This document shows positions 20,464 through 42,687 of a stretch of DNA of 64,000 nucleotides, in pieces (position 1 is the stretch's first letter; each line of letters opens with the position of its first letter). The stretch is from Candolleomyces eurysporus (lineage: Eukaryota > Basidiomycota > Agaricomycetes > Agaricales > Psathyrellaceae). The translations under genes were made by a program, and so were the position numbers. The DNA lies in the NCBI GenBank assembly GCA_027579435.1, contig JANBPK010000771.1:1-64000 (forward strand), in the 5' to 3' direction. The notes below the pieces were generated by a model that was not told where the DNA came from, searched no databases, and worked only from the letters and a program-made list of their open reading frames with translations.

Positions 20464-23400
20464 ATGATGCTCAAAAGTGGGCCTTGCATCGGTGCGCAGA
20501 TTCCATTTCCCTGCTCGACCTGCTCTACCCCTTCTTCATGCGACCTCGCTAATGGCCNTCCAGCGGAGCCTCAGGCTCCTCCAGCATCCCCCAGAGCCCC
20601 AGGCGCCCTCTTCGACCCCGTCGATGTCACCGTCACCAACAAGCTGACGGCCCGCTACCTAAATGACGGCGAGGCCCGCACCAAGCCCATGCTCAACAAC
20701 TACATTCGCCATGCCCGCATAGGAGGAGGCCAGCATGGCGAGGTCTATCTGTGCTTTAGAATCGACTCGAGGCTGCCGACGGACGACCCGCGGCGGTTGA
20801 TGCCAGCGGTGCGTCCATTCCGTTCAATTATTGCCTCTGGTCTCGGTATTCAGCGGGAGGGTGCGTGCCATAGGCGATGAAGTCCGTCAGACGAAACAAC
20901 CCCAAGGAAGAACGCCTCGGAAAGCTTCGACCCCCCAACGCAAAACTCCCCACGAATCGCGATCCCAACTCCCTCCCCCTGGCCGCCAAAGTCAGCGCAA
21001 CCGAGCAGAAAATCCGCAAGGAAATCGCAATCATGAAGAAGCTTCGGCATCCCCATGTCGTGCGTCTCTACGAGGTCATCGACGACCAGCTGCAAAGCAA
21101 GATCTACATGAGTGAGTGGCAGGGCGTTGCAGCGTTTTCGAATGCGACTCTTCACGTCTCGTCTCAACATCGAGCTGACCTTCGCTTCACAGTCATGGAA
21201 TACCTGGGAGGGGGTGAAGTGAAATGGCGGAACGATCACAGCGAACCGGTGCTCAGCGTTGCCCAGACGCGACGAATCATTAGAGATGCAGTTTTGGGCC
21301 TGGAATACCGTAAGTCCGTTCAATCGCTCTTTCGGGAACATTCACAGAACTCTGTTGCAGTGCACTATCAAGGAATCATCCATCGGGACATAAAGCCCGC
21401 GAATTTATTATGGACAGAAGATCGCAGTCAGGTCAAGATTGGCGATTTTGGCGTGTCCCACTTCTCGTACGCACAGCGACTGGCCGCTGCCGGAAAAGCT
21501 GCGGAAAAGGAGCATCCAGAAGCCTTCCTTATGGATGATTCTGACCTCTCAAAGAGGGCTGGTACCCCCTCGTTCCTTGCACCAGAAGTCGTCTGGGAGT
21601 ATTCCTCCTCTTCCCCCTTCACATCCCAAACAGAGTTAGCCTCACCCCGAAGCACCGGCACCCTACACAGTCTTACTTCACCTCGACCGCCAGTCACCAA
21701 GTCCATCGACATCTGGGCCCTTGGTGTCACATTGTACTGCCTCCTATTTGGCAAGGTCCCCTTCACACCCTTTTCCGACCATGGTGGTGAATTTGAATTG
21801 TATCGAGTCATCTGCAATTCGGATTGGACTGTTGCACCTACGATGGGCGCTGATGAAGTGCCTACAGGAGGCCGACATCCCACTTCATCAGGTCCAGGAG
21901 CCGCCGTCATCCTTCTCCTCGATCGTTTTCTCCAAAAGGACGTCCAGAACCGTATTACGCTCAATGAAGTCAAGGTTCGTGCTCCTCTAACACCACCCCC
22001 TCTTGTGCGTTCATGAACATTATGAATGCTGATACTTCTAGCTTTCGCTTGGTGATGATTCACAGGCTAACCCGTGGATATTGCAAGATCTGCCTGACCC
22101 TGAACGATGGATCCACACCACCTCTGCCGTCTCCAAGATTCAGATCACGCCCGGTGAAGCTTCCGATGCGATGTCGAGTGTACGGTTCAGGTGGAACTGG
22201 GGTGCTCGCGTTACGCGGAGGCTTTCCAACTTCTTCTCGAGGCCACGAGGTTCTGCTGCTGGCGGTTCGTCGCGCGGCCCAACGACCTTATCTCAGATAG
22301 GCGAAGGATCATCTTCGTCTAGGAGAAGCAATGGCGTACGCTCTGACCCCCACGGATCGTCTAGCGGCGAGACAAACTCACGGGCCACGGCGTCTTCTAT
22401 GACTTCTCCATCCCGCGTACGGCCTCGGGTGCAGACGAATGCTGTTTATCATGTCGCGTCCAGTCCTGGTCTGTTCCCAGCGCGGCCGTCTGAGAAGAAG
22501 GACAAAGGGAAGAAGAAAGAAGATTCATCGGGTCGAGGGTCTCACCATCATCAGCACTCTAGCCATGGAGGCTCTTCGCATGATGTGCCGATTAAGAAAC
22601 GCCAGGGCTCTGAGCAGACGGATCCTAGTGCGACTACCCCTTCGACGACGTCCTCGAGTCCGATGGTTCTAAGCCAACTGAAGAGCTGGTTCCCGATATT
22701 CAACAACCGGTCATCTGAGCGCGCGAACCAGCAGGCTTTGGACCACAATCGAAACAACAAACCCACCGCTGCTGGACAGCAACAACAACAACCATCACAA
22801 CAGCAACGCTCCGGTACAGCGTCCAACGCCAACCGAATATCTTCCATTCGTGGCGAACCTGGGACTCGACGAAGCGAAGAAGCGCTACGGTACTACAGGT
22901 CCGGACAGCACAGCCAGAGCAACGACGGTATGCTCACGGCTGCACGGAGAGCGTCGAGTTGGGGACAGGGTGACGAGCCGATGGAGTTTGCGGAGGTGAT
23001 GAGCATTACGTCGATGGACTTGCAGTTGAACGACAACGACTATTTGTTTGGGGTTGGGGGCATAGAGCCTAGGTCGTATAGACCGAGACCTAGGGATCCG
23101 CCGCCGGAGTCCCCCGAAGACGAAGACGATCGTGACTCTTCGCCTATTTGTTCACCGACGAGTTCGTCGTCGTTTAATCCGTCGTCGCCTCGAGAGGGGG
23201 AGGCTGGGCCGTCAAACTATGCGGAGATCGTGGCGCAGGCGCAGGGGGATGATGGGACGTATGTGTTCGACGGGTCGAGCAGTAGTATTGTCAGCGGGTA
23301 TGGGAATGGCGGGGAGTCAAAGTGGGTCAACACCCTCAGTGACGATGACAGTGACGATGACGAGTTCTACGACGGAGAAGACGATCCGGATTTCGATGAA

Positions 23401-30850: not shown

Positions 30851-32234
<1,384 letters not shown>

Positions 32235-34316: not shown

Positions 34317-36216
34317 TCATGGCTCATCGTACATGACGAGGAACGAAGGCCTGATGGAATCGTTGTTGTAAACCACGAGTTCGTCATAGTTGAGGCTACC
34401 ACCTTTCTCGGCGAGGACCTTCGAAACGCGTTAGATGTCGATCATCGATTATCGAGGGAGACGGAGGGGAAGACCTACGGAGTCGTAACCGGCTGGAGCA
34501 GCCGTAAGAGTTGTGTTGTCCTGGAGCATCTTGCACCCCTTCCCGACCACGACCTTGTTCAATAGGATAGCCTTGAGGTTGGACTTGCAGTCATTGTGTG
34601 AATAGTCGTTCGATCTAAATGAAGGGACCGTAAGTAAATTGGGCCCCAAAGGCAAAAGTCACGAGGGCAGTTAGCTCACTTGGAGGAAGTCGAGGACGTG
34701 TAAATGCCTTTGCCGAATCTAAAACCAAATTAGAAAGAATAAACCATCCGTCAGAAAGGATGTCAAGCATGAAATGAAAACGCTTTGTGACTTACCGCCC
34801 CCATCCCGTCTTCTTACCCCATAGAGTGATATCGAACGAGTTCCGGATGATAGAGCACAATGAACATGAGCTATGAGAGCAGAACTGCGTTTGCCCCTTG
34901 TCACCGAGGTTGCATACTCTCCGAGTTCCGTGCCACCTTCGGTTCTCGTTCCCGGCTGACCGTCCTTGCGCGACAAACTGTCCCTTAGCCTCGACCGCGG
35001 CCCTGTTATCGCGATTCATTAGTACCCAGCTTCGTGTAGAACAGCGATAAAACTTACTTGTACGCTTCGTAGTTGGCTAGCTTTCCAGGAGGCATCATTA
35101 TCTTGTAGATCCTGCGGACCGCAGGACACGTGGAACCATGTCTCCAGGAGGCTTTGAATTGGTCGGCCACTAGGTAACCATTTTCGGTCCGAAACGATCA
35201 GTATAATCGCTTAGATGAAGCAAAGGGGGAAACACGAGATTGAAGCAGAATGTTACTTACCACTCTTGAACGTAGAATGTCCTAAGGGAACTTCGAGAAT
35301 CGTAGGACCCTTCTGTTCCGCGTCATCGACACATGTCTGAGAGCAGAAATGCGAGTTGGCCATCTTCGGTGCCTGGAGGCACATGAGGCAAAGGTTCTCT
35401 GCCAATCTGAGGTTTGAGACAAAGAGAGGGAATTCATCGATTGAAGGCTACGCAGGAAATGAATCAAANGGGGGACATACGTCTTGTGTGCGATCGAGCA
35501 ATAATCACTCGAATGGTGCGGCGGGTTGGTACATCCCGGAGCCCCACAGGCTTCAAAGGAACTAATCAGCACAAAAGAAAAAAAACGAGGAAAAAACGAC
35601 CCACTTTGGCCACTGGTCGTCGAGGAGGTGGTTTGCTTCCTTTGAGGTTTGGCGTTCTGCGCACAGGCCTTGCTACAATAGTCGTGTGTGCGGGTCCCGT
35701 CATTGTACTTCGGTCGGTTGTGGCAGAACTAGGCCCATACACAGTCACTCATAAGATCGTTTGGGGAGGATTTCTACGAAAGAACTTACGGTGCAGTTGT
35801 TACTGTTCGTGTTACCAGAGCCTGTCTTGACACTGGAATTCTTGCTCGCACAAGTCTTGCCGCAGTATTGATGCGTCTTGGTTCCGTCTGTATACCTCGG
35901 CTTTACGTGACATTGCTAACGACAACGACCAGTCAGAACATGCGCATCTACAGCAAGGGACACTCACAATGCACATCGAAGAAGAGGTCGAACTCGATCC
36001 AGTCGAGGTTGGATTATTTGTACCCGGATTCTGAGCGGCATATGAACTGGCAGAAGAGGTCCCCGTAGAGCTGCTGCTCTGTGGCGCAGGAGGCGCGACA
36101 CTCGGTGGCGGGGCAGGAGCGGGAGCCGCCTGAGCCTTCTGCAGCCCACTTGCGACACTACTAAGGAACGAGAGCGCCGTCAAGGCGGTTGGAATATGTG
36201 AAGCCATGGACGACAT
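34317..36216 (-). CDS. Cys-module / PARP-type ADP-ribosyltransferase protein A
   Basis: Predicted 441-aa protein from ten exons: 36216-35968, 35915-35790, 35728-35601, 35561-35481, 35406-35261, 35169-35058, 35002-34796, 34718-34680, 34614-34479 and 34418-34317. After a Ser/Pro/Ala-rich N-terminus come four cysteine modules (C82/C85/C101/C105, C124/C127/C143/C147, C173-H193, C201/C204/C216/C220). A PARP-type catalytic domain follows from about 244: VADQFKASWRH, then WHGT (H305), GKGIY (Y356) and NYDELVVY (E421), so the H-Y-E triad is complete. Between H and Y lies a cysteine cluster (CNLG, FCSHSSCSLC) unlike metazoan PARPs. Activity is expected but target is unknown. An 'n' at 35470 lies in an intron. 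It is divergently paired with the gene at 36635. Confidence 0.85.
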
Positions 36217-36634
36217 GACTGTGTTTGCGTAACGTCAGTCGCGTCTCAAGATAGAACTAGAAGAAGATAGTGAGTGAGTGAGATGGATCGCAGATCCAGC
36301 TGTTCGAGGGGAGTTGGAGAAGATCAACAAAATACGGAGGGTGTCACAGGCGGGCTGGTTTTAAACCAAAACAGCAAGCATGCCACTCACATGGATAGGA
36401 TAAAACAGCTAGCACGCGTGCAGGTAAAACCTCTTTCGGAGGCAGTGCCGCGACCATTCTTTTGAAACGAGGCGGGGGCGTGTTGTCCGCGAGGTCATCA
36501 TCACCCCCGTTTCCTAGATCGCAAAATCAGTCCCAAATATCAGGTGAAAGAGTGAATGGATAGACATACGTTGATCATTATAACTTCCTCTTGCATCGTC
36601 CCGTCACCATCACCGTCCATCCAGGCTGTCCAGC
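36217..36634. promoter_or_regulatory. Shared head-to-head promoter of ART genes A and B
   Basis: The 418 bp separate the divergent start codons at 36216 (minus) and 36635 (plus). Both genes belong to the same family, so the region probably drives them together. I see no TATA box that is convincing on either side. Position and orientation are observed; co-regulation is inference. Confidence 0.45.
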
Positions 36635-37943
36635 ATGCCCTCCCTAGTCAAGAACGTTGTGAACTGGAGTCACAATTTCCGCTCTCAAGTCCCTTCTCCT
36701 CCGCAAGTTGACCTCTGCGAAGTGAGTGTGGCATGCATGCTCTGTGACTCGCTCGGCTAATTAGGAAAATATTTCATTAATTCTCTCCACCAACCTGCCT
36801 ACTCCTCAATGAAGATATGCGGGAAGAAACCCAAATTCGTCGACAACGGGTTTAAACATCCTTATTGCAGCAGGAGCTGCGCAAGGAGCGTTCCAGGGGG
36901 CGGAACGAACCCGACCGCCTGTGCTCTTCGTGGTTGTCGCGCTACCGGAAAACCTGCTTTCGCAAACTTTTGCTCCGATGCGCATGCAAGGTTCGTTTGT
37001 GGTCGATGTCTTGGTTCGCTTTGCTGATATGATGTTTTCCATATGTCGCGTTTGATTTCAGAGAAGGCGTGAAACAAGGCAGAGTTGATGGATGCGAGCA
37101 CTGTAAAGTGCAGCCAAGGAGCATGGGGAGTTTGTGCATCCCGTGCGATAGGGCTTCAAGAGGTGGGCCGCGGTTGAGGGAGCTTCATCCTGATGGTGCT
37201 ACGTTCAAGGCTCGTAAGTTCATTGATCCCATCTACGAGGGGTGTTCCTTGTGTGCTCACCGCTTTGCCCCTAGTGCGAGCGCAGTTCCTGAGCGAGTGG
37301 GAGCCGTCAAAGCAGACACCGTCGTTCGAGAAGGTATATGAGGTCTTGTTGCCACAAGATACGCGAGCTCGTCACGAACAATTCCGGTGAGTGATAATGG
37401 CGGGAGATGTCGGGTCGAGGTTTCCTGATGACTTCGCGAATAGTGCTAGAAACCCGGCCTTTCAAGAGATCCGAAGTTTCCACAGCTCGCAATGCATCTG
37501 CGACCTAGGCGTCAAGGAACCGACGCTGTGCAACTTCAAGTCTTGCGGAATCTGCTCAATCATCAAGTCCAGCTTCAAATCGTTCGCCTTTGGGGTTCCT
37601 TCAAATCAGGGAAGGTAAGTCCTTCACCCAACCCGATAGTCTACGAGGAGGCGTAAGTTAAAGATGACGGTGATTAGATTCGGAGATGGGATATACTCGT
37701 ACCGCAACCCCAGGCTGGCCGATCGGTTTGCGACCTCTTGCACGTCTTCTCCCTATCGCGTGATGATCGCCGGCGACGTCTGTGTTGAGCCAGAGCAATG
37801 TGATGAAAATCAGGTGAGCTGGACGTCAGATGGAGGGTTTCAGGCTGTCATCTGACCTCCCAAAGACAGGTGATGAAGAGTCGTTGTTCGCACAAAGTGC
37901 AGAAGCAATCATACCAGTGTATGTTATCATGTATGCGAAGTAG
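36635..37943 (+). CDS. Cys-module / PARP-type ADP-ribosyltransferase protein B (diverged)
   Basis: Paralogue of A, 303 aa. Exons are 36635-36721, 36815-36990, 37062-37213, 37275-37386, 37444-37614, 37678-37813 and 37866-37943. Three cysteine modules precede the catalytic region: C28/C31/C47/C51, C65/C70/C82/H86 and C99/C102/C113/C116. The ART part starts near LRAQFLSEW. The triad positions are H189 in FHSS, Y239 in GDGIY and E283 in GDEESLF. The normally fixed HG[TS] has become HSS, and the domain is shortened between Y and E. The inserted cluster (CDLG, LCNFKSCGIC) is kept. It may have weak, altered or no transferase activity. The last acceptor at 37865 was chosen because it restores the family C-terminus. 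Confidence 0.8.
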
Positions 37944-38024
37944 AACGGGGAAGATTATTGAAGGGTCATTTGAATTATGGAATGAAATAATAATTAATAA
38001 ATTATGCATATTGAACACACTAAA

Positions 38025-39058
38025 TTAGCTTGCAAGCGGTGTCTTAAATAGTGTCGTGATAACGCTCTTGATGATCTTGGCGTTCGTTAAGGGAGGTGGA
38101 TCGCCATAGACAACCACATAAGCAGGGCGAATTGCATCGTTGTCGTAGACAACTGTTTCCTCGTAGTTGAGGTCGATACCAGGCTCCCCAATAACCTAGA
38201 GTCGCTGGGCGTTCAGTTCCAGCACACCTAAACAACGCTAGATTACTCACCGAATGATGGCCGCAGGGAGGCTCGGTGAGACTAGTAGCATTCTTCTTGC
38301 GTCGATGAGCCTTGCCAACGATAACTCGACTTACGAGGATAACGCGAAGATTGGAGGCGTTGTCGGGATTAGCAGTGTAGTCATCAGCCTCTACAGGAAA
38401 AAGGGTCAGCTGTGGCGCGACTAGAAGGGTAAGTGGCACGAACTGGAGGAGCATGCTGTCGTATAAATGCCAGTGCCGAACCTAAAGCACAATTAGTGGT
38501 ATTCGAGCGAAGCAAACGAATCCTCTAACCGTTTGAACCTGTGCTTGGTGCCACATTTCTTGATATCGAAGGAATTGCGAATTACGCTGCATAGATTACA
38601 TTGTGGCAAATGGCAGAGCCGGGTGCTGCGGCTGTCCTCTCCCAGAAGGCAGCATCGGGTAGTTCCATGGAACAGGAGCTGTTCGTTGGAAGGATTGTCG
38701 GCTTTCTCTGCCAGGCGTAGTGCAGCAGCAACTCGTGTTCTAACCAAGGTGAGATAGCTGCCTAGTCAAGTCAGAGCTGAGGACTCACCGATACCGGTGA
38801 AAAGGTTTGAGTACGTTATCAGAGAGGGCTATTCGAAACACCCCGTAGATACGTGGACGTTTCTTCTTGGGATGCTTCCAGCCTTTCCGAAAGCTCTTTT
38901 CCACTGCAAAAGTGCTTAGCGTCAGATACGGTTACAGGTCCAGAGCTCTCACCTTCTATGTACTTCGAATTTGATTTCTGAAGTGGAACCAATCTGTTGG
39001 AGATTCCGCAGCCCTTGTTCTGAGGGTGGTCGAAACTGAACTCGTCGAGCGCTGTCAT
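38025..39058 (-). CDS. PARP-type ADP-ribosyltransferase protein C (no N-terminal Cys modules)
   Basis: Third paralogue, 265 aa. Exons are 39058-38953, 38903-38789, 38757-38530, 38481-38444, 38390-38251 and 38195-38025. It starts in the linker that precedes the catalytic domain in A (RLVPL then IEGVEKSFRKGWKHP), so the N-terminal modules are absent or lie in unrecognised upstream exons. The triad is complete: H104 in FHGT, Y156 in GTGIY and E222 in NYEETVVY. The inserted cluster (CCLLG, LCHLPQCNLC) is present. Intron positions match A, including the phase-2 intron just before FG-x-GIY. It is convergent with B, 81 bp away, and divergent from the NADAR gene. A start 30 nt upstream is also open. 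Confidence 0.82.
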
Positions 39059-39843
39059 CGTGTACTGTGATATTACACGATGCCCCACCAGTTACAAGCA
39101 TCTTATACGCCGCCCCTGGTCAGCATTGTCTTGTCTTCGCTGATAATGAAGCATGGTCCGGCAGCGTTTCAGCACCACGAGGCGTTGTCAGTCAGCGGTT
39201 GGCAGCCATTATGAACAGCTTCTAGGGTCTTGTTGTCAATAATGAGTCTTCATGACCTCTTCGTAGACCAAAGAGTGTGATTCTGGCATTTACAGGGTGC
39301 ACAAAGGACATGGTCGCAAAGACCAGCACATCGATGCGCAGTCAAGAGGGCTGGAACTGCGAGCTGAGCTGGAGAGAGCTGGGCGAGACGCGTTGTTTGC
39401 CGGAAGGCTGTGGTACAAACAATGATCGCAAGCCAGTTGCCAACCGGTTCAGCTTTCTTATGACTTGACCTCATCCTCGCGGTTGCCTCGTGGCCTTTCA
39501 AGCATTCTGGGGCGGCAAAACGCGACAGAAAAGGCTTCAGCTCATTGGCAGCTTAGGAGCACCCGATCCAAACCAACCCAGGGAGGCTATGGACATTGAG
39601 TTGTGTCATGTTGGCTTCATCATTATCGATCCGAATGGCGGACTCACATTGAGGCCCAGGTGAGGAGGAACAGCCCTGGGGTGAGGCCAGTATTCTCCAC
39701 TTACAGGCTCCGGTGGCCTCTTAGGAGCTACAAAGCAACTATAACACGGCGTGCTCACTCCACGAACATCACTCATTACCTTCATCCTGCGTCGCCTCAC
39801 CCTGTTGGTCTATCTTATTTTGACTCTCTTCGTCAACCATCAT
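39059..39843. promoter_or_regulatory. Head-to-head promoter region of ART gene C and the NADAR gene
   Basis: The 785 bp between divergent starts at 39058 (minus) and 39844 (plus). On the minus strand it contains short Cys-rich frames (CYSCFVAPKRPPEP near 39710-39760, and LCDHVLCAPCKC near 39290-39330) that look like worn copies of the Cys modules of this family. I could not join them by splicing to gene C. It may therefore be both a bidirectional promoter and the remains of lost 5' exons. Confidence 0.4.
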
Positions 39844-40919
39844 ATGTCTGCCAATCGCAAGAGAATCACCATCATCACTTCACCGTCTAGCTCCACGAAA
39901 TCCCTGCCGGCATTTCCTGGGAGTTCACCGACCACTGGAAAACCCGTTCAATATCGAATCGAGGAGCGGAAACGGACCGTCTATGTGACCTCGGACGTCG
40001 CACCCTCGGAGTGGGATCAGGAGAGCCTGGACACCATCCTCACTTTGGCCGATAGTGACGAAAGTGAGCATAACGAAGCGAACGGCGAAGAACCCATTCG
40101 TCGAACCAGGTCCCTGGTGGAGACTCAGATAATAATCACAGAGGATAATTCATTCAATAACCCTGTCTACGACGCTCGGGAGATGATGACGCCGCGACTC
40201 ACTCCTAACCGTCTTCGACGGCCTGGTAATAAGAGTCCACCACTTCAGGCGACGCGTAGTGTGGGCACTCTCCCCGACTCTCCACGTCGGAGTCCGTTAC
40301 AGCCGAGGCGGAAGATACTCTTCTACGACAAAAACGATCCTTATTATGGCTTCACAAACTTCTCGGCCCACCCTGTTATCTACCGGGGGAAGAGATATCC
40401 TACCAGCGAACACTTGTTCCAGTCGTTCAAGGTAAGTTGATTCAACTGCAATTCCTTCTCATTCTGACGCCGTACATCCAGTTCCACGATCACCGTCCAA
40501 ATCTCGCGGAGCACATTCGGACATGTTCCGAGCGACCAAGCGTAGCCTTTTCAGAAGCTAGACGGTTCCAACCCGAGGTTCGCCCTGACTGGATGCAAGT
40601 CAATATCCCAATGGTATGGCGAATGATCCTTCTCCCGCTATGATGCTCAATCTTTACCTGCAGATGGAGGAAGCCCTGTGGCACAAATTCACTCAACACG
40701 CTGACCTCCAAGCGGAACTGCTAGGTACAGGTGATGCAGAACTCATCGAGGCAAGTTCGACGATTTATCTACGTATTGAATGCAATCTAACCTTCGCCGA
40801 ACGCTTCACAGGATTCGGATAAAGATGCGTTCTGGGGCGTTGGGGCAGATCGACGGGGACGAAACGAACTCGGCAAAGCACTCGAGAGACTGAGGGCGAA
40901 ACTCCGAGATCACCAGTAG
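39844..40919 (+). CDS. NADAR-domain protein (YbiA/DUF1768-like)
   Basis: Predicted 304-aa protein from four exons: 39844-40431, 40482-40613, 40664-40750 and 40812-40919. The first 155 residues are Ser/Thr/Arg-rich and probably disordered. The NADAR domain fills the rest: FYDKNDPYYGFTNFSAHPV, YPTSEHLFQSFKF with the conserved glutamate (about E189), RPDWMQVNIPMMEEALWHKF, LLGTGDAELIEDS, FWGVGADRRGRNELGKAL. NADAR proteins act on ADP-ribose derivatives and some are reported to remove ADP-ribose from guanine bases; whether this one does is inference. Its place among three ART genes supports such a link. Intron 3 has a GC donor (40751) instead of GT; splicing there restores the conserved domain exactly. 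Confidence 0.9.
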
Positions 40920-41312
40920 ATTATCGCCATCGATGGGCCGGAAACCTCTTGCCAGTGTGCCGTCTTTCGCGTGCATTGGCCTCGTTCCCTTCAAACCAAC
41001 CGCTTCTGATTATGCATTGCTGAAACGCGTTGTTTTCTGTAACATACATATAATCATTCCTGGCAGAGTGCGTACAACACGTGTTTGCTATCTCCCTTTG
41101 ATCTATCTATGTTTTATGATGATGCTTGTCTCTATGTGGCAGTTCTCTCTTTGTTTTCGATTTGACCTCGAGGACGACGCGCGATGTTTGTGTCGAAGCG
41201 CAGTATTAAAGGCGCCTGGCTTATGAAGGGAGGTCTGCATCAATAGCACCCCTTCAACTACCTCACTCCTCCTTTGTTGTGTATCGCTAACCGACCCCGA
41301 CTCTAATCCACG
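40920..41312. other. Spacer between NADAR gene and Cys-module gene E
   Basis: 3' flank of the NADAR gene and promoter of the next plus-strand gene. A 'tattaaa' box at about 41203 sits some 110 bp upstream of the start codon at 41313. Nothing else is recognised. Confidence 0.4.
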
Positions 41313-42687
41313 ATGGCGGCTCGCAATCCCATTCAACCTCAAGCCGTTCAGGCTAACCCGCTCTGCGATGTATGTCTTCCGTCATCTGATATCAACGCCG
41401 TCTGACATTCGCCGCTAGTATTGCCACTTGAAGCCCAAGTTCGCTGGCCACGCGTTTTGTTCTAAGACTTGTGGTGCTCAAGCCGCGACATTATGCAACG
41501 TAAGCACTGCTCGTCCATCTCTAGCCTATCTATATTGGCTGACTGACTGTCTGACTCGTTGGCATAATCAATCAACGTCGTCGATCCTTCGCCGTACCTC
41601 CGTGATCGACGCCGATTTCTCTACCCCTTTACGACGGCGGACGCGATACGCTAATAGTACTGCCACAAGAAACCAAAGTTCCAAAACTTTGAGTACTGCG
41701 GGAAGAATTGTGCAAGTTTGGCTAACCCTGGCGGTGTGCCAAAGCCCGCTGCTGGACCTGCCGCCCGCGGCGCGGGTGGTGCTGCTCCGAAGCCCAGGGG
41801 CGCTCCGGGCGCTCAGCAGCCTCTCGGCTCCGGCCCACTCGACCCACTTTCGATCGCCAGTACGTGTTATCTATCCCGCATCGTCGCGTACTTCCGACTG
41901 TGGGCGACTAATCTCCTTTGGGTGTTTGCAGAGATCGTCGTGCAGAACATGCCTCAAGTCCAGGCGCTGCTCAACGGCACGGGCATACCTGCCAATCCTG
42001 CTGGCAACTCTCAGGGTGGTGGCGCCTACGGCGCTCAGGTCCAACCACAGCAGCAACCACAGCAGCCATTGAACAACCCGTTCTTGAACCAGGCTGCAGC
42101 TGCCATGTCCAATGGTAGTAGTAGTTTACCCGCTCCTCCGAACTATTCGAGTGGCGTTAATGGTTATGGCGCGGCGTATAGCGGTGGCGGGGTACAGCAA
42201 CAGCAATACCAACAGCAGCAGTACCCCCAGTACGGCCAGCAACAACAGCAGCAGTACAGTGCCGAAGATCTTGAATGCCTTATCCCTGGCTGCGGGAAGC
42301 CTGTCCACGTTGACTCGAAAGGCATGAAGACGAGCGATTACTGTTCGCAGAGGCATCGGGAGTGAGTCATATCATCCCTTCCTTTCAGATTATGACCGAG
42401 ATATGCTGACGACGGTTCGTGATGTCTTTAGGGAAGCCGTCTCGTCTGGACTCGTTCAAGGTTGTATTATGTGCCTGACGAAACCTCAAAGTCATACGGA
42501 CTATTTCTGTTCGAGAGCGTGCAGGGAGGAGAGTTTGAGTAAGCAGCAGGAGCTGTATGCTAATGCGCCGGCAGGGGCGACGACTTATGGTGTGCAACCG
42601 AGTAGTAACGTTAACAATGCCCAGTATGGTGTGGGTACCGGTGACGATGAGGACGATGAGGATGCATTGGGTCTCTCTCAGAACTAA
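41313..42687 (+). CDS. Stand-alone Cys-module protein E with Gln-rich linker
   Basis: Predicted 341-aa protein without a catalytic domain. Exons are 41313-41369, 41419-41499, 41658-41859, 41932-42361 and 42432-42687. It carries four modules of the type found in ART proteins A and B: C18/C21/C33/C37, C45/C48/C60/C64, and near the C-terminus a C-x4-C version (CLIPGC, DYCSQRH) and CIMCLTKPQ with YFCSRAC. Introns 1 and 2 fall in phase 0 between the two residues of each C-x-x-C knuckle, as in A and B. The middle is Gly/Ala- then Gln/Tyr-rich (prion-like), and the tail is acidic. I infer an adaptor or partner of the ARTs through shared modules. Zinc binding is likely from the Cys pattern but unproven. 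Confidence 0.85.

Follow-up and report, generated by a model that had tools for sequence, protein, structure and literature searches.

Five neighbouring genes of Candolleomyces eurysporus combine putative PARP-type ADP-ribosyltransferases (ARTs) with a NADAR-domain protein and a non-catalytic cysteine-rich protein. Do they form one ADP-ribosylation unit, or are they neighbours by inheritance only? The role of NADAR proteins across eukaryotes is stated to remain unclear (PMC11125620; this and the other papers cited are represented by the accessible parts of their text), and a conserved block in which a eukaryotic NADAR stands beside PARP-type writers offers candidate partners for it.

Gene models and layout

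According to the rebuilt gene models, positions 34317..42687 of the window (the whole stretch of 64,000 nucleotides that was analysed) hold five spliced genes in the order A(-), B(+), C(-), NADAR(+), E(+):

34317-36216, minus strand: gene A, 10 exons, 436 aa (exons 35968-36216, 35790-35915, 35605-35728, 35481-35550, 35261-35406, 35058-35169, 34796-35002, 34680-34718, 34479-34614, 34317-34418)
36217..36634: A-B interval, 418 bp, between divergent starts
36635-37943, plus strand: gene B, 7 exons, 298 aa, last intron ambiguous
38025-39058, minus strand: gene C, 6 exons, 259 aa
39059..39843: C-NADAR interval, 785 bp, between divergent (head-to-head) starts
39844-40919, plus strand: NADAR gene, 4 exons, 304 aa
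41313-42687, plus strand: gene E, 5 exons, 341 aa

Introns are GT-AG throughout the rebuilt models, with the third NADAR intron (GC-AG) as the sole exception, and a single undetermined base (N) at window position 35470 lies inside an intron of gene A. The best public match of the A model is a 434-aa protein of C. aberdarensis (97% identity over 99% of the A length), and the E model reaches 96% to a public protein of 341 aa. The NADAR model shows 78% over 99% of its length, and C aligns at 62-65%, across about 240 aa, with the opening stretch of two public gene models. The models of A, C, NADAR, and E are thus borne out by public proteins aligning along them, while B stands without such a check; models and alignments together confirm five genes at the place where the original prediction had put them. 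Both the A-B and the C-NADAR interval are possible shared promoters, as the layout suggests. The open frames for ribosomal protein L4 (window 31273-31869) and a protein kinase (20874-22013) upstream of the block are ordinary neighbours.

Catalytic domains

PARP is the only Pfam family above the cut-off both for A (3.9e-15, 56.3 bits vs the curated cut-off of 26.7) and for C (6e-14, 52.5 bits vs 26.7). A consists of four N-terminal cysteine modules followed by a PARP-type ART domain, with the triad H300/Y351/E416, nearly invariant in an alignment of 114 relatives, and a Cys4 cluster (C306, C317, C322, and C325) that sits inside the ART domain. C carries the triad H98/Y150/E216 and keeps the in-domain cysteine cluster, with the N-terminal modules absent. 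Both triads had been recognized in the original prediction, whose numbering runs 5 residues too high for A (H305/Y356/E421) and 6 too high for C (H104/Y156/E222) relative to the rebuilt models.

As for the fold, failure to model as a PARP had been named as an outcome that would speak against the prediction. The ART domain of A, the one protein modelled among A, B, and C, does model as a PARP fold, and structure comparison of this model returns PARPs such as PARP15 and tankyrase, both of which are protein modifiers. By profile, PARP3, PARP4, and tankyrase come nearest to the catalytic part of A among 42 solved sequences; these 42 do not include PARP16 or other Clade 6 chains, an absence that excludes nothing. 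Judged by sequence and model, A is a PARP-type ADP-ribosyltransferase with an H-Y-E triad, as is C by its sequence, and transfer activity is predicted for both.

B combines three cysteine modules like those of A (read by eye) with a diverged ART-like domain. It keeps H189 (in FHSS) and Y239 as earlier numbered; HGT is changed to HSS, and in alignments that allow for two ways of splicing the last intron the stretch leading to the catalytic glutamate is mostly missing, leaving the predicted E283 unsupported. No Pfam match of B, including PARP, exceeds the cut-off. In a BLAST search against 353 fetched proteins, B shows 27-32% identity to relatives of A (best E 2e-29), and no close orthologue is found among them. 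B as a third active ART was rejected, and this diverged ART relative is probably inactive, because the HGT turn and a recognizable catalytic-glutamate strand are absent from the alignment. Thus, of the three H-Y-E transferases originally proposed, A and C are intact. In Pfam, with matches admitted up to E 1, neither A nor B nor C shows a WGR, a PARP regulatory, or a UBCc domain; a search of the genome for the PARP regulatory domain gave no match anywhere, with the controls also silent, and is hence uninformative.

Shared cysteine arrays

E contains four cysteine modules in the same order as the N-terminus of A, split by a low-complexity linker. Its invariant cysteines in 37 sequences are 18/21/33/37, 45/48/60/64, 229/234/251 (with His255), and 268/271/283/287, and in the family alignment the Cys or His positions of the N-terminal modules of A are at least 90% conserved. 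By sequence comparison, E is the four-module array of A without the enzyme, because hhalign joins both over the whole array in the same order (probability 99.8, E 1.4e-30). Cysteine modules common to A, B, and E, as originally noted, are therefore found again, between A and E by hhalign and in B by eye.

No Pfam family exceeds the cut-off for E or the arrays. Sub-cut-off matches are limited to zf-FCS in 2 of 10 homologues scanned (best 0.0064) and zf-HIT in B (0.88); naming the modules after Pfam was dropped, since all matches lie below the cut-off, and they are left unnamed here. The pattern of cysteines, that of zinc knuckles, suggests that the modules bind zinc. An alignment that pooled the homologues of NADAR with those of E mixed unrelated parts and was set aside before folding.

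The NADAR protein

The NADAR-domain gene expected within the block is borne out by a Pfam match of 2.2e-37 (residues 159-301) and by the catalytic residues E189, K196, and E269, all present when placed by eye with the alignment and published text. The last-strand residue is a YbiA-type Glu, not a BC4488-type Asp, and a structure model of the homologue P0121 confirms the NADAR fold. According to NCBI models, the protein passes the riboflavin-intermediate N-glycosidase family TIGR02464 (105.1 bits vs a cut-off of 73.7) and falls far below the cut-off of the NADAR anti-phage protein model (68.2 of 240 bits). By sequence, it is a member of the YbiA family with intact catalytic residues, for which guanine-ADP-ribose hydrolysis and action on riboflavin intermediates are candidate activities. 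Residues about 1-110 (window 39844-40173) form a conserved region outside the YbiA core, with strands and a helix predicted at moderate confidence; Foldseek and VIA give no convincing fold match for this region, a negative that does not argue for a novel fold.

Published activities point in more than one direction. The NADARs assayed in PMC11125620, PMC11543638, and PMC11833690 release ADP-ribose from guanine bases of DNA or RNA, and YbiA-like NADARs are grouped with flavin-biosynthetic NADARs of plants and fungi (PMC11543638). E. coli YbiA did not protect cells against DarT1 or YarT (accessible text of PMC11125620), so that guanine activity of a NADAR in vitro names no partner. Human PARP10 modifies the uracil base, and the E. 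coli C7 NADAR does not remove this adduct (PMC13036486, in the part available). A DUF1768 gene is one of two at the T-DNA insertion of a Zymoseptoria mutant (PMC5568738). Of the 30 long open frames in the window, 20 were scanned with Pfam, and no riboflavin enzyme is among their matches.

One alternative is that A and C modify proteins, and that NADAR acts on a soluble ADP-ribose derivative of the same pathway and not on the product of the writer. It would suit the fold match of A to PARP15 and tankyrase, the solved sequences nearest by profile, and the argument that NADARs act on soluble derivatives in phages (PMC9503650). However, riboflavin intermediates aside, the NADAR activities reported in the accessible literature are on guanine adducts, and macrodomain matches found elsewhere in the genome are candidates for acting on protein adducts. 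We consider this alternative unlikely.

Linkage across Agaricomycetes

Homologues of A and NADAR share a contig in 45 of the 51 species present in both lists (best 120 of 281 A matches and best 120 of 664 NADAR matches, so that absence from these lists means little). The corresponding values are 50 of 53 species for A and E (A from the best 120 of 281 matches) and 42 of 55 for NADAR and E (NADAR from the best 120 of 664), and all three lie on one contig in at least 30 species. As a proxy, equal-sized contigs within one species were counted as shared. The linkage table holds 102 of 120 rows for A, 86 of 120 for NADAR, and 87 of 113 for E, and omits rows without a named species or contig size as well as the fused P0278. 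Random placement would yield about 9 of 51 species for A and NADAR, assuming eight NADAR genes in 50 Mb (both figures being assumptions). The original prediction had proposed a survey of related genomes and regarded chance-level co-location as fatal; the co-location found is well above random placement, and background conservation of gene order could explain part or all of it.

The 6 species with no shared A-NADAR contig are Agaricus bisporus, Coprinopsis cinerea, Ephemerocybe angulata, Mycena capillaripes, M. epipterygia, and M. polygramma. Rows for the first 3 seemingly come from different strains or assemblies, and in the 3 Mycena species the NADAR listed covers about half of the query and is perhaps a paralogue. 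A shared contig is missing in 3 species for A and E, and in 13 for NADAR and E.

On the smallest linked contig (15.9 kb, Leucocoprinus) the locus tags of A and NADAR follow directly on each other, and a 21.7 kb contig of Amanita polypyramis carries A, NADAR, and E. Beyond Agaricales, A is linked to NADAR in Jaapia (Jaapiales) and Rickenella (Hymenochaetales), to both NADAR and E in Somion (Polyporales), and to E in Piloderma (Atheliales) and Phellopilus (Hymenochaetales). Spacing by locus tag ranges from adjacent to about 20 genes, e.g., NADAR 007271, E 007275, and A 007291 in P. cyanescens, or A 006596, E 006599, and NADAR 006614 in A. inopinata. Two gene models, from Gymnopilus dilepis and Psilocybe cyanescens, join a homologue of C to A, and NADAR is fused to E in one model of Agrocybe chaxingu; these fusions may be annotation mergers, and either way the genes lie side by side. 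In the gene models P0024 and P0094 of Thelephora terrestris, two A-type ART units stand in tandem, through a genuine fusion or through the merging of tandem copies.

With linkage compared against random placement, conservation of gene order is a serious rival, and the main one. Under this explanation, slow change of local gene order in Agaricomycetes keeps the genes together; NADAR would be a metabolic N-glycosidase for riboflavin intermediates or an enzyme for general repair of guanine-ADP-ribose, and A, C, and E would act on proteins, independently of it. The match to TIGR02464, the grouping of YbiA-like NADARs with fungal flavin-biosynthetic ones (PMC11543638, available text), the ordinary neighbours such as L4 and the kinase, and the variable spacing of A, NADAR, and E all agree with it, as does the failure of exon-wise searches to find a second ART-NADAR pairing in the genome. 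In contrast, A stays linked to NADAR or E while spacing changes, both in four orders other than Agaricales and on contigs as small as 15.9 kb, every part belongs to the ADP-ribose field, E repeats the array of A module for module, and the window frames scanned contain no riboflavin enzyme. Inheritance alone is plausible, if on balance doubtful.

Other copies in the genome

In exon-wise searches, from which weak copies may escape, the further contigs carrying A-like ART matches (C258, C670, C876, C987, C1042, C226, and C43) are all without a NADAR match, and the further NADAR contigs (C503, C983, C999, and C753) are without an ART match. Since the other ART and NADAR matches sit on separate contigs, the pairing is one inherited locus; the data speak for a single old locus that was retained, and not for an ART-NADAR pair assembled repeatedly. 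The NADAR-like domains L071, L072, and L073 (contigs C983 and C999) have lost at least one of the three catalytic residues, as judged by eye.

Arrays of A-like genes lie on C258, C876, C987, and C1042 (loci L065-L069 and L074) and on C670, and the stretches read retain cysteine modules and the HGT/Cys core. A segment common to C258 and C670 lies at constant offset, so that these contigs may represent two haplotypes or a duplication. Such a growing-family pattern would suit a conflict system in which ARTs of the A family act as toxic effectors, against viruses or in self/non-self recognition, while the linked NADAR confers immunity, for which YarT-YbiA offers a precedent (PMC11125620). The anti-phage model match of NADAR points the same way, far below its cut-off as it is. 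Yet the sequence of A itself is strongly conserved, the array contigs show no NADAR match, and PADLOC is negative for homologues of A, E, and the C-A fusion, with one weak match for a NADAR homologue. A conflict system of this kind is quite improbable; by sequence, the strong conservation of A speaks for a steady cell function, and the A-like arrays leave some room for a conflict role.

Proposed mechanism

The reading that we tentatively prefer, at somewhat less than even confidence, is that of an ancient Agaricomycete ADP-ribosylation locus, i.e., a chromosomal writer-eraser-adaptor unit in which the writer is checked by a neighbouring eraser. A and C would transfer ADP-ribose from NAD to a target that NADAR can clean, with A steered to this target by its own cysteine array, and NADAR would remove the product. 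E would bind the partner of A via the same array, acting as a scaffold or recruiter or as a competitor, and B would be a decayed or regulatory ART copy. The most likely target would be a base, guanine, in DNA or RNA; this is a guess by analogy, made because the NADARs tested cleave ADP-ribose from guanine, and the resistance of the PARP10-uracil adduct to the C7 NADAR means that it needs a writer of different preference. The logic would resemble that of bacterial DarT-NADAR and YarT-YbiA. As regards the writer-eraser-adaptor block originally proposed, its co-conserved PARP-type writers, NADAR, and stand-alone cysteine protein stand, and B as an intact third ART does not.

If so, the block may represent a system for reversible marking or for defence that is not yet described, and the question is testable in the laboratory mushroom Coprinopsis cinerea (tags CC1G_11638, 11641, and 11642).

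Comparison with known systems

No description of the block was found in the literature searched on NADARs, fungal PARPs, DUF1768, and C. cinerea genes, which lies mostly outside subscription journals. The closest layout is that of YarT-YbiA of myxobacteria (PMC11125620, accessible text), in which an H-Y-[E/D/Q] ART gene stands beside a YbiA-family NADAR; likewise, C with its H-Y-E triad and NADAR lie head to head. The likeness is one of layout, whereas the present genes are eukaryotic and spliced, their writers are of PARP type (PF00644), one of them with cysteine modules, and a stand-alone cysteine-module protein is added. DarT1-NADAR (DarTG1, PMC11543638, as far as available) also links an ART writer to a NADAR eraser. 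A and C, however, match PARP and not DarT in Pfam, and the YbiA Glu replaces the BC4488-type Asp.

Among fungal PARPs, a 2010 survey assigns only Clades 1 and 6 to fungi (PMC2964712, accessible part), both sharing the PARP catalytic domain with A and C (PMC2964712, PMC4245714). Unlike Clade 1, A and C have no WGR or PARP regulatory domain, yet the catalytic part of A matches PARP3 among solved structures; unlike Clade 6, they have no UBCc domain. The four cysteine modules of A and the Cys4 insert inside its ART domain set it apart from both. PARP6/8 relatives of Clade 6 have a cysteine-rich stretch, CX2CX9-19CX4C, before the PARP domain (PMC4245714, in the text available), loosely like the modules of A, which by eye read CX2C..CX3C and are not identical; in view of this stretch, A and C may be distantly tied to Clade 6. 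The block thus points to fungal PARPs that carry neither set of accessory domains. With the YbiA riboflavin-intermediate N-glycosidase, NADAR shares the fold, the catalytic residues, and a TIGR02464 score above the cut-off, and differs in the extra conserved N-terminal region, the linkage to ARTs, and the lack of a riboflavin enzyme among the window frames scanned.

ART-NADAR pairs are known in bacteria; new here are the PARP-type writers (two intact triads), the separate cysteine array, and the wide spread in Agaricomycetes. A somewhat unlikely reading takes the locus as the counterpart of these bacterial pairs; as far as the literature searched shows, it would then be the first eukaryotic genetic PARP-NADAR pairing.
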